Part shown: positions 17,566 through 21,390 of the stretch, piece by piece
Numbering within the stretch: position 1 is the first letter of the stretch
Layout of the letters: each line of letters opens with the position of its first letter
Source: Eubacteriales bacterium
Lineage (GTDB): Bacteria; Bacillota; Clostridia; Lachnospirales; Lachnospiraceae
DNA: 46,084 nt
Assembly (NCBI GenBank): GCA_030533235.1
Contig: JAUNJN010000013.1
Span: 1 to 46,084 of the forward strand
Direction: 5' to 3'
Position numbers and translations under genes: made by a program
The notes under the pieces: generated by a model
The model's database searches: none
What the model was told of the DNA's origin: nothing
The model's input: only the letters and a program-made list of their open reading frames with translations

Positions 17566-18273
17566 TTATTGCGAGCTTTCCAGAAAAAGCATATATGCAC
17601 GTTTGAAGTCGGGATACTTCCGTACCGTTAAATATGCTTTGTATTTGTTTTGATATAAAGAAATCAGGTTGCTGTTAAAGTTATTTATGTGATGCATATT
17701 AACGATATAGCTTCTGTGTGTGCGGAAAAAGCATTGGCTGTTTAAGATTTCTTCCCAGTAATCCATTTTTTCGGTTGAAGGGTATATGTCTTGAAGTGTA
17801 TATACAAATACATTTTTTCCTTTTGCTTCTATCATTATGATATCGCTTGCCAGGACGGTGTAAATGGAATCTTTTGTCGTGATGGCAATTTTTTCATTTC
17901 GGGATGCGTGCACTGCAAGTGCATCCTTAAGATTACGGAACAGTCGCTGCTTTTCAAGCGGTTTCGATAGGTATCGAAATGCATGAAAGTGCAGTGCTTC
18001 ATCCAGATATTCTTCAAATGCAGTAATCACAATATAAAGTGTTCCCGTATCTCGCTTGCAGAGCTCTTTTCCGGCGTGTATTCCGCTGATTCCGGACATT
18101 TCAACATCGATAAACACAATATCCAGACTTCCTTTATAATCTAAAATCTCTTCCCCTGAATGGAAGACTGCAATCTCCGGACAGGGAAGCTTGCGGGAAG
18201 AGAAATATTCTTGCAGGTATTTTTCTAATATATTACAAAAGTATATGTCGTCATCGCAGATAGCAAAGCGCAT
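17566..18273 (-). CDS. AgrA-like LytTR response regulator
   Basis: A 235-residue two-component regulator. The N-terminal receiver (about 1-125) has the acidic pocket DDD at 7-9, the phospho-acceptor Asp56 in FIDVEMSG, and the conserved Lys in YLSKPLE. The C-terminal LytTR DNA-binding domain (about 135-235) includes FFRTHRSYIVNM. This is the AgrA/ComE architecture. Its start lies 6 bp beyond the end of the kinase gene, with the ribosome site inside the kinase's 3' end, so the two are translated from one message. It is expected to be phosphorylated by the adjacent kinase and to activate the agr-like locus and other targets. Confidence 0.9.
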   Translation of the reverse strand: MRFAICDDDIYFCNILEKYLQEYFSSRKLPCPEIAVFHSGEEILDYKGSLDIVFIDVEMSGISGIHAGKELCKRDTGTLYIVITAFEEYLDEALHFHAFRYLSKPLEKQRLFRNLKDALAVHASRNEKIAITTKDSIYTVLASDIIMIEAKGKNVFVYTLQDIYPSTEKMDYWEEILNSQCFFRTHRSYIVNMHHINNFNSNLISLYQNKYKAYLTVRKYPDFKRAYMLFLESSQ

Positions 18274-18279
18274 CGTAGC

Positions 18280-19629
18280 TTACACTCCTTTTTTCTTTTT
18301 TTTGTAAAATATTTCGGTTGGCAGCGGATCATGTTGGATCAGAAGAATTGTGTGAAAGCTTTTATCCTCCTCTGAATAATACATTTCAATATTTCCCCCG
18401 TAGTGTTTAATAATATTTTCAATACTTTTTGTACCAAATCCGTGGCGAATTTTATCCGGCTTTGACGACAGATAACGATTTGTCTCTGTTTGGACAGGGG
18501 GTGTCTGACAGGAGTTAACCATGGTAACTACCGTATGCGTATGTGGAGCATTATCGGAAAGACGCAGGTCAATCTTGGCTTCGTCGGTGCCCCGGGCGGC
18601 TTCAATTGCATTGTCCATTAAATTACAGAAAATTGCGGTAACATCCTGAAAACGCATGAAATTTAAATCCGTACCTTTGGCATCCAATGTAAAACGAATC
18701 GATTGAGTGTCACATATGGATGAATATTTCGCTATTAACAGATTGAAAATCTGACAGTTTGTAGGTTGATATGTACGGGAAAGTGCAGATGTATCGGTTA
18801 GTTGTTCTATATACTGGTTCGCTTCTCTGTATTGTCCGGATATGTTGAGGTCGTGGATTGCCTGCAAATGGTTTTTGATATCATGAATCAGTATTTTTTG
18901 GTCTTCGTCTTGTTGTTCCATAAGTCTGCTATATTGGATCGCATCCTCCGCTCGTTGAGATTCCAGCTTCAGATTTGTGATGAGGGTTTGCTGTGTTTGA
19001 TTGTAATCAAAGAGCCATGCAAAAAACAAGCTGATGGCAATTAATACAAAGGACGTAAACAGCAGCATATACTCTGACGGACGGTTGAGATTGTTGTGGC
19101 AGCAGACATAGATTAAAATAACGGAAATACAGCACGTAAACGTACATATACTAAGGAGTGGCCAAAAGCTCTTGTTTGTGGAGGATTGCGCACGTCCATG
19201 ATGGAATATACGAACGACAATCAACACCACCAGAAAAAATAGCAGTTTACTGCATACAATAAAGATATATCTGGAGGTTTGGGGTACTAATGCGATGTCG
19301 GTTGCCTTTAATATTGTGTTTCCCAAAAGAATACCCGGAATAAATTCTGTCAAAAGCATCATTGACTCCAACAGTAACGTAAAAAACAAGCCCGTAAAGA
19401 GTGGACAGGCATATACTTGCAGAACTAAGAAATAATTCAGAGCAAAGAAGGATATGTCGTTTAAGACAACAATATTTGCAAAAAAGATTGCATACAAACA
19501 GGCGTAAACCAGAATATATGGGATGGAAACAGGGCGAGATGAAGCCCTGCAGAGTATGTGATCGTAATAGTAAAAAGCAATATATCCCTCAATCAAAAAA
19601 ATGAGAAGGTAAAGAATTGCATGTGCCAT
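18280..19629 (-). CDS. AgrC-like membrane sensor histidine kinase
   Basis: A 449-residue kinase. The first about 215 residues contain six or so hydrophobic segments, the usual AgrC peptide-sensing membrane domain. A coiled-coil linker leads to the HPK10-type kinase core: His249 in IHDIKNHL, the N box in FCNLMDNAIEA, and the G box in GFGTKSI. GGAAGGGG on the minus strand precedes the ATG, and a TTGCAT/TAAACT promoter lies at 19667-19695. Together with the LytTR regulator it forms the sensing half of the agr-like system; the pro-peptide and its protease are encoded about 0.7-1.5 kb away on the other strand. Confidence 0.9.
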   Translation of the reverse strand: MAHAILYLLIFLIEGYIAFYYYDHILCRASSRPVSIPYILVYACLYAIFFANIVVLNDISFFALNYFLVLQVYACPLFTGLFFTLLLESMMLLTEFIPGILLGNTILKATDIALVPQTSRYIFIVCSKLLFFLVVLIVVRIFHHGRAQSSTNKSFWPLLSICTFTCCISVILIYVCCHNNLNRPSEYMLLFTSFVLIAISLFFAWLFDYNQTQQTLITNLKLESQRAEDAIQYSRLMEQQDEDQKILIHDIKNHLQAIHDLNISGQYREANQYIEQLTDTSALSRTYQPTNCQIFNLLIAKYSSICDTQSIRFTLDAKGTDLNFMRFQDVTAIFCNLMDNAIEAARGTDEAKIDLRLSDNAPHTHTVVTMVNSCQTPPVQTETNRYLSSKPDKIRHGFGTKSIENIIKHYGGNIEMYYSEEDKSFHTILLIQHDPLPTEIFYKKKKKGV

Positions 19630-19757: not shown

Positions 19758-20090
19758 TTATCTTTCCGAATTCGTAATAATAATTTCAATAATCTGATCC
19801 AGTACAGTCAAATCGTGTTCCGAGCACAACCGGAGCTTGTCAATTATATTTTTTGATATGTTATAGGAATGCAGACTTCCCATCATAAGATAATCCGGAG
19901 TTACGTCGAGTGCAATGCAGAGTTTACACAAAAGATCGTAGCTTGGGTGTGATTTTCCGGTTTCGATTGTAGACAAATGGTTTGTTGAAATATCCAGTTT
20001 TTCGGCAAGCTCGGATTGCTGCATGTTCAAGGCTTTTCGCCTCTTTTGAATACGTTTGCCAAATTCGTTCATGTTGTGTAGGTCGCCCAT
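19758..20090 (-). CDS. XRE-family helix-turn-helix regulator linked to the agr-like locus
   Basis: A 110-residue DNA-binding protein. The Cro/C1-type HTH spans about residues 10-65 (QSELAEKLDISTNHLSTIETG), followed by DYLMMG and a short helical tail. The start at 20090 is preceded on the minus strand by AAGGAG, 8 nt away. It is divergent from the pro-peptide gene and in the same direction as the kinase-regulator pair, so it is well placed to control both sides. A 16-bp palindrome lies just upstream of its ribosome site. Its effector is unknown. Confidence 0.85.
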   Translation of the reverse strand: MGDLHNMNEFGKRIQKRRKALNMQQSELAEKLDISTNHLSTIETGKSHPSYDLLCKLCIALDVTPDYLMMGSLHSYNISKNIIDKLRLCSEHDLTVLDQIIEIIITNSER

Positions 20091-20114: not shown

Positions 20115-20130
20115 TTATCAATTCTGATAA
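20115..20130. promoter_or_regulatory. 16-bp palindrome, candidate XRE operator
   Basis: TTATCA-ATTC-TGATAA is a perfect 6-4-6 inverted repeat located 25-40 bp upstream of the XRE start codon. Its position suits autorepression by the XRE protein; this is inference. Confidence 0.45.
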
Positions 20131-20139
20131 TTATTATGA

Positions 20140-20252
20140 ACAAGATGTAATAGAAGAAATCTATGAAATGCTTAATAGAAAAAAATTATGCACAAGATTT
20201 CGTAGATAAAATCGATAATACAAGGATTATTTTGCTCGAAAAGGCAAGATTT
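20140..20252 (+). repeat. Spaced direct repeats upstream of the pro-peptide gene
   Basis: ACAAGAT occurs at 20140 and 20192 and GCAAGAT at 20244, exactly 52 bp apart each time, with a weaker ACAAGGAT at 20220. The spacing is close to five helical turns. They could be binding sites for the LytTR or XRE regulator, or chance in A-rich DNA. I found no strong sigma-A promoter for the pro-peptide gene here, which would fit an activator-dependent promoter. Confidence 0.4.
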
Positions 20253-20365
20253 AAACATTTTTCATGATTTTGTGTCGATTCATGACCGGACTATGGAAAT
20301 CTCGGAAGAAAAGAAATATGTTTAATGTAGCACTAACAGAAAAACGGAAAACAGGAGGTAGGAAC

Positions 20366-20503
20366 ATGAAAAAGCAAAAGAAGTTATCAAATGTAATTGC
20401 TGCAATTATGACAAAGGAGCTGCAGCTAAGCGCAAAATCCGCAGGAAGTCACTGGGCATATCAGCCAAAGACACCGGAAGGCTTAAAACGCTTCCGTAAA
20501 TAA
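20366..20503 (+). CDS. AgrD-like cyclic peptide precursor without cysteine
   Basis: A 45-residue pro-peptide. AGGAGG (20353-20358) lies 7 nt before the ATG; the frame is open further upstream but has no other ribosome site. The layout is AgrD-like: an N-terminal Lys-rich amphipathic helix (about residues 2-24), a short core, and a charged C-terminal recognition tail QPKTPEGLKRFRK (33-45). There is no Cys. Ser28 starts SHWAY (28-32) directly before QP, giving a five-residue ring with Ser as the ring-closing residue, i.e. a lactone. The stop overlaps the AgrB start (TAATG), so translation is coupled. The exact cleavage points are inferred. Confidence 0.8.
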   Translation: MKKQKKLSNVIAAIMTKELQLSAKSAGSHWAYQPKTPEGLKRFRK

Positions 20504-21087
20504 TGCTATCGGTATTGGCAAGGAAAACGACCGGATGGCTTATCAGGCATGATGCAATTGACGAAGCAGACAGGGAATTGTATGAATATGCAGCATACAA
20601 TTTAATGTTTACATCCATTCCATTGACCATTTTTATTGTTGTATGTCTTTGTATGGGATATGTTATGAATGGGTTGGTGTTGCTGGTTGTTACTTTGTCA
20701 ATTCGAAGATATGCCGGTGGGTATCATGCGAAAACACCGCAACTTTGTGTTGTTATTTCCAGTGGAATGCTGACTGCCTGTCTTTTTTTATCGATTGTAA
20801 TGCCGGATCATTGGCCAACTTGTGGTGCTGTTTTGGCATCTGCAGTATGCCTGTGTATATTCAGTCCCGTGGATTCGGAAAATAGGAGGTTGGATGAGGA
20901 AGAAACACAAAGCTGCAGACATAAGGCACGTTGTATGACGTGTTTTTGGTGCCTGATTTATCTCGTGTTGTCTGTTATCGGACAGGGGAAGCTTGCGGTG
21001 TGTGTAAGCCTTGGGATCGTTGTTCCGGCAATCATGCAGATGGTTTGTATTGGCCGTTTTTCAAAAAAACATAACAAAAATGAATGA
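20503..21087 (+). CDS. AgrB-like peptide-processing membrane protease
   Basis: A 194-residue integral membrane protein that cuts the C-terminal tail from the AgrD-like peptide and joins the ring. The catalytic pair is His75 and Cys82 within RRYAGGYHAKTPQLC, with the same seven-residue spacing as His77/Cys84 of S. aureus AgrB. Several hydrophobic segments follow the N-terminal amphipathic part, and the C-terminus is Lys-rich. The start codon overlaps the stop of the pro-peptide gene. The gene order peptide-then-protease is the reverse of the staphylococcal agrB-agrD order. Confidence 0.92.
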   Translation: MLSVLARKTTGWLIRHDAIDEADRELYEYAAYNLMFTSIPLTIFIVVCLCMGYVMNGLVLLVVTLSIRRYAGGYHAKTPQLCVVISSGMLTACLFLSIVMPDHWPTCGAVLASAVCLCIFSPVDSENRRLDEEETQSCRHKARCMTCFWCLIYLVLSVIGQGKLAVCVSLGIVVPAIMQMVCIGRFSKKHNKNE

Positions 21088-21146: not shown

Positions 21147-21390
21147 TGTCTGTTGGTGCGATAAGCAAAGAGAAAATTTGGGGATCGTGGTGCGTATTAT
21201 GTGAGGGATAATGTGTCGGAGAAATTGAATAATCTTTTGGATTATATGGGGGGGAATTGATATAAGTTTATGTCAAGCGCGAAGATTACATATGTCCCTG
21301 TAATACAAGGGCGATACGCACGGAAAACAGATGATCGTCCTTGTATAAAACAAGAAAAAGCACCCGGAGTCAGACTCCGAGTGCTTTTTT
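21147..21390 (+). ncRNA. Candidate small RNA or untranslated transcript next to the agr-like locus
   Basis: The gap from 21088 to 21399 holds a promoter-like sequence, about 210 nt without a convincing gene, and a strong terminator. Inside it a 13-bp stem pairs 21303-21315 with 21334-21346 (one G-U). A 40-codon frame (21270-21392) exists but has a poorly spaced ribosome site and runs through the terminator stem, so I do not call it. The transcript could be a regulatory RNA or simply the 3' part of the agr message. It matches no RNA family that I recognise. Confidence 0.4.
21356..21390. terminator. Bidirectional terminator between the agr-like locus and GH94
   Basis: A 15-bp stem with one mismatch (21356-21370 with 21374-21388) and a 3-nt loop has a T-run on the plus side and a T-rich tail on the minus side. 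It lies 10 bp past the GH94 stop codon. Confidence 0.85.

Follow-up and report, generated by a model that had tools for sequence, protein, structure and literature searches.

The window (the entire 46,084-nucleotide stretch of DNA analyzed here) probably carries a complete agr-type quorum-sensing system with a signal closed by serine. Its agrD gene occupies positions 20366 to 20503 of the forward strand, including the stop codon (20501-20503), and encodes a pro-peptide of 45 residues that reads MKKQKKLSNVIAAIMTKELQLSAKSAGSHWAYQPKTPEGLKRFRK. The sequence AGGAGG (20353-20358, same strand), read as the ribosome-binding site, is separated by 7 bases from the agrD ATG at 20366, and the gene overlaps agrB by a single base (TAATG), the agrB ATG lying at 20503-20505. 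The peptide contains no Cys, and its Ser28 is encoded by the AGT codon at 20447-20449. The initial annotation had described such a gene, with its AGGAGG, stop-start overlap, and lack of Cys, and this description is confirmed both by the sequence and by the NCBIfam profile TIGR04223 (AgrD family cyclic lactone autoinducer peptide), which the peptide matches with 31.5 bits (E = 1.4e-7; cutoff, 19); a Pfam scan of the peptide gave no match. The AgrD-like tail reported at the same time is present as QPKTP, in keeping with the QP/EP..P recognition tail. Profile score, tail, and an adjoining AgrB with intact His and Cys all place the peptide in the AgrD family, and a chance open reading frame is unlikely because of the profile match and the conservation of the peptide in other species. 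When AgrD columns are numbered from the tail Q/E as 0, canonical thiolactone peptides have Cys at -6; the window AgrD has Gly27 there, with Ser28 next, which bears out the earlier alignment of Gly27 with the canonical Cys column and places the nucleophile of this subfamily one residue nearer the C terminus. In the window genome (67 contigs, 87% complete), this is the one AgrD above the TIGR04223 cutoff, three others being weak (E of 1.57 or more); it adjoins the only AgrB found there, and no Cys-bearing sister agrD was found in these contigs.

The membrane peptidase/cyclase gene agrB follows at 20503-21087 on the forward strand (PF04647, E = 2.9e-35). Its catalytic pair, His75 and Cys82, which had been reported as intact, corresponds to columns H71 and C78 of our AgrB alignment A1 and is invariant in all 12 rows of that alignment and in 27/27 loci of the comparison set described below. 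The A1 residues that match S. aureus AgrB R70, G75, H77, and C84 by spacing, the roles of which we take from PMC10196373, are likewise all invariant. A profile search for a solved AgrB structure returned only a viral fusion protein, as a weak match (E = 0.015). On the reverse strand lie genes for an XRE/Cro-type DNA-binding regulator divergent from agrDB (19758-20090; PF01381, E = 5.1e-16), an AgrC-like sensor kinase with seven hydrophobic segments, an HDIKNHL motif, and a GHKL ATPase domain (18280-19629; PF14501, E = 4.4e-19), and an AgrA-like LytTR response regulator (17566-18273; PF04397, E = 7.4e-19; PF00072, E = 7.3e-14), which scores below the AgrA equivalog cutoff (23.9 versus 400 bits). 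In a neighborhood survey of 20 stretches, fetched from the 26 relatives of the 27-locus set, a sensor kinase and a LytTR regulator accompany the agr genes in 18 of 20 relatives, as they do in the window, and in these 18 their homologues adjoin agrDB; L240 and L243 depart from this pattern, the L243 contig being 3.4 kb long. Sixteen of the 20 stretches contain an XRE homologue at some place, that of L243 being weak. Four Rce1-like matches occur in the window genome, none of them inside the window.

Several features surround these genes. Two direct repeats (20126-20164 and 20178-20216; 39 bases, 74%, spacing 52) lie between the XRE gene and agrD and are possible regulator sites; no such pair could be made out within 330 bases upstream of the three same-genus orthologues, and the repeats were for that reason dropped from the argument. 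An inverted repeat upstream of agrD, AACGACAAAAAA ... TTTTAYGTCGTTTCAC, was recognized by eye as common to three same-genus orthologues (L227, L228, and L229). The stretch separating agrB from the gene that follows contains a strong hairpin (21355-21389), which has T runs in each strand and is likely a terminator for both flanking genes. Terminator-like sites in the scanned region numbered 5, against 1.3 expected, and a promoter scan found promoter-like sites at chance level (6 against 6.3 expected).

Relatives were collected through AgrB. A genus search of 37 genomes gave 55 matches in 23 of them, a family search with the window AgrB gave a match in 108 of 397 genomes, from which 30 loci were fetched, and a further 71 AgrB loci came from genome contigs. 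This first set held 157 loci, including three copies of the window locus, and AgrDs were found by pattern beside AgrB and partly picked by eye. After exclusion of copies and six short pieces, 149 AgrBs, 33 of them without an identified AgrD, entered the first tree; all AgrB trees were quick trees. The window AgrB groups with those of L017, L020, and L029, from the same genus (46 to 50% identical), in a clade of 13, these four loci representing 4 of the 37 genus genomes, and a second AgrB clade of 8 has the same AgrD type. A profile of the first clade was run against 392 order-level and 397 family-level genomes and against 5 and 7 genomes of two genera; the best 8 candidates per genome were scored in the 392- and 397-genome searches, so that the members added, at 153 bits or more, number at least 5 (L159, L160, L162, L225, and L226). 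L167 (107.8 bits) was taken in for its AgrD and was then placed in the second clade. This second round yielded an AgrD candidate in 57 of 70 loci. With a profile of the second clade, 30 of 391 class genomes gave a match, and no new clade member was recognized among the loci examined. The resulting comparison set has 27 loci, the window included, with every row of both AgrB clades retained, and the canonical set against which it was read has 76 AgrDs, picked for Cys at -6. L176, from a genome of the same order, and L057 (Niameybacter massiliensis) have identical AgrDs, which, with Niameybacter placed in the Lachnospirales, suggests that this is the order of the window host as well. The types of source recorded for its relatives suggest that the host is a gut bacterium.

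The column comparison across homologues that the initial annotation had proposed was carried out on these loci, and it agrees with the suggestion made there that Ser28 is the ring residue: column -5, where Ser28 stands, is occupied by Ser in 13 loci, by Cys in 13, and by Thr in 1, so that 26/27 loci from two AgrB clades have one or the other of Ser and Cys there. The AgrDs of L017, L020, and L029, the orthologues of the window gene, have no Cys and carry AGS in the same place as the window. Eleven of the 13 Ser peptides lack Cys altogether, and the other two have it elsewhere, L002 within its leader and L167 both there and at -2. The single Thr peptide, L130, has Ser at -6 and Cys at -2, and its ring residue may differ from column -5. 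All five relatives scanned pass TIGR04223, four of them Ser peptides (L017, L128, L131, and L002) and one a Cys peptide. Among the remaining columns, Q/E at 0 and P at +4 are found in 27/27 loci, in part by construction, as the search pattern required Q/E and a nearby P, and L occupies +7 in 26/27 and F +10 in 20/27. The canonical AgrDs share with the window the kind of leader, the ANS motif, the QPxxP tail, and the gene pair and differ in having Cys at -6 (76/76, the set having been chosen for it). Because the spacing of the QP tail from the ANS motif (-10 to -8) is the same in the canonical 76 as in the 27 loci, the frame is fixed, and the nucleophile appears to be displaced by one residue toward the tail.

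A tree of the 27 AgrBs with 18 further ones requires 8 switches between Ser and Cys; 7, 6, and 5 remain once forks with support below 80, 90, and 95% are collapsed and then resolved in the most favorable way. The closest Ser/Cys pair is L002 and L045, whose AgrBs are 65% identical. The Ser codons at -5 are AGT or AGC, with the exceptions of TCC in L135 and TCA in L139. No AgrB residue tracks the choice between Ser and Cys in these loci; the best candidate occurs in 3/13 Ser and 11/13 Cys loci and is equaled in 79 of 500 shuffles. Since Ser and Cys alternate at column -5, Ser28 is likely the ring-closing residue of the window AgrD, and the alternation lends support to a lactone: the window peptide has Ser where relatives have the ring Cys, a likeness of comparison and not of chemistry. 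In a separate class-level AgrB group, outside the 27, L193 and L199 have Cys and L211 has Ser at -5, with Gly at -1.

The size of the ring depends on where AgrB cuts. S. aureus AgrB cleaves AgrD1 between M32 and D33, with D33 and E34 needed for the cut (PMC10196373), and in the present numbering this cut falls between columns -2 and -1. The 76 canonical AgrDs vary at columns -5 to -2 (3.69, 2.94, 2.86, and 3.45 bits of entropy), and column -1 is less variable (1.87 bits), being H, Y, N, or G in 74/76 (mostly H, Y, or N). In the 27 loci, columns -4, -3, and -2 have 3.20, 3.01, and 2.74 bits and -1 has 1.09 (Y in 21, F in 3, H in 2, and N in 1), so that the variable block after the nucleophile spans three columns here versus four in the canonical AgrDs. 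If in both sets the tail that AgrB removes begins with the conserved -1 residue, the ring here has four residues. On balance, these columns favor a predicted 13-membered ring, Ser28-His-Trp-Ala31 (20447-20458, forward strand), with Ser28 as the nucleophile and the cut before Tyr32; Tyr32 and the QPKTPEGLKRFRK tail (20459-20500) would then be the part removed by AgrB, which would free YQPKTPEGLKRFRK. A four-residue ring is strained, and none was found in a limited search of the open-access literature.

The initial annotation had instead proposed a five-residue lactone, SHWAY, and although comparison supports its serine lactone, column variability and the known AgrB cut favor SHWA over its five residues. 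A ring of five would follow if the AgrB cut had moved by one together with the nucleophile, to lie between Tyr32 and Gln33, and the tail freed would then be QPKTPEGLKRFRK. We consider this quite possible: rings usually have five residues (PMC12312760), and the strong conservation of Tyr at -1 (21/27) would suit a residue fixed by the cut-site pocket of the enzyme, so that this Tyr could equally be the fixed last residue of a ring. Against it, the last ring residue of canonical AgrDs, at -2, is among their most variable columns (3.45 bits), and column -1 here resembles the conserved H/Y/N residue that follows the cut in the canonical set.

Departures from a lactone through Ser28 fare much worse. 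No member of this AgrD subfamily has a product known to us, and to that extent the processed peptide might be linear and uncyclized; this is very unlikely, as alternation of Ser and Cys at one column is hard to explain without a nucleophile role. Closure of a larger lactone through Ser25 or Ser22 draws on the presence of Ser at -8 in 19/27 loci and on the nine-residue Ser lactone made by the fsr system (PMC12312760), but the -8 Ser is found with either Cys or Ser as the ring residue and is the commonest -8 letter in canonical Cys-AgrDs too (38/76). Its independence of the ring residue and its frequency in the canonical set assign it to the ANS motif before the ring, and Cys, which occupies -5 in 13/27 loci, occupies -8 in 0/27; a larger ring is accordingly very unlikely. 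Finally, the initial annotation had allowed that Cys-bearing homologues from close relatives could expose the gene as a decayed copy, and such a loss of Cys, with no cyclic signal, fits the Cys-free peptide, the Cys at the same column in 13/27 loci, and the lack of any sign of purifying selection on AgrD in codon comparisons among L017, L020, and L029 (synonymous/nonsynonymous differing codons, 7/7, 12/11, and 11/10), but it was judged most unlikely, as Ser is kept in the three nearest orthologues found in the 37 genus genomes and recurs on several branches, and the genes for AgrB, kinase, and regulator have open reading frames in the window and are conserved.

The AIPs of S. intermedius and S. 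pseudintermedius have a ring of five residues. The Ser lactone AIPs named in the literature covered are those of these species and, as GBAP, of E. faecalis (PMC12312760 and PMC3673130). As in the window, Ser replaces the ring Cys in the S. intermedius and S. pseudintermedius AgrDs and gives a lactone (PMC12312760 and PMC3673130), but the S. pseudintermedius Ser stands in the staphylococcal frame of a nonamer AIP (PMC3673130), whereas the window nucleophile is at -5, in a set of relatives that switch between Ser and Cys. Such interchange is not a given, since the replacement of Ser by Cys in the S. pseudintermedius signal reduced the response (PMC3673130). The E. faecalis fsr locus resembles our reading of the window in being agr-like and producing a Ser lactone (PMC12312760); GBAP differs in its nine-residue ring (PMC12312760) and in that fsrD lies inside fsrB in another reading frame (PMC3673130). 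That clostridial ring size can vary is suggested by the six-residue ring predicted for C. acetobutylicum-type AgrD (PMC10301443). The latter is Cys-based and one residue larger than usual, whereas the ring in the window is probably one smaller. In the open-access literature covered by our limited search, we found neither a Ser-type nor a four-residue AgrD ring described for the Lachnospiraceae, and no account of a shifted nucleophile.

Other Ser-type candidates lie downstream of AgrB genes. In the window genus, L003, L004, L016, and L107 have AgrD-like peptides with Ser instead of Cys at the canonical -6 (e.g., NKASVWMLYQEEEP); L003, the only one of this group scanned, passes TIGR04223 (22.9 bits), and L016 has Cys at -2. 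The peptides of L021, L114, L116, L120, L122, and L124 are 32 to 43 residues long, have Ser before [LF].F[FL]GEP[ED][YF]P, and are possible Ser lactones; the two scanned, L021 and L116, fall below the TIGR04223 cutoff. A third kind (L012, L018, L027, L104, and L105) reads G[KR]S.P...[YF]E, with Ser at -7, which would make a six-residue ring, and here too the two scanned (L018 and L104) are below the cutoff. Among the 37 of 55 AgrB loci in the genus that have an AgrD candidate, the likely ring position holds Ser in 22 and Cys in 15, a count in which L113 was placed by eye and less certainty attaches to the Ser candidates at -6 and -7. Ser may therefore be commoner than Cys in the window genus.

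By the mechanism of the family, AgrB would remove the tail of the window AgrD and keep the new C terminus as a thioester on Cys82, which the hydroxyl of Ser28, chosen as the ring residue by comparison only, would attack to form the lactone. The leader would then be removed from the cyclic peptide by a presumed protease, and, to judge from gene content, the adjacent AgrC-like kinase and LytTR regulator would sense the product. More broadly, it is about as likely as not that a branch of agr systems in Lachnospirales-like gut bacteria has shifted the nucleophile one residue toward the tail, with four-residue, 13-membered rings and repeated replacement between Ser and Cys while the AgrB active site stayed the same.

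A ring one residue smaller, if true, would extend the sizes described so far (5, 6, and 9 in PMC12312760). The alternation of Ser and Cys, with AgrBs up to 65% identical, offers natural pairs for the demands that AgrB and the receptor place on the nucleophile. A lactone would be free of the thiol exchange to which a thiolactone is open, and this could be of consequence in a gut rich in sulfide and thiols. If the reading of the branch is true, relatives at a modest evolutionary distance can differ in whether their signal is a lactone or a thiolactone.
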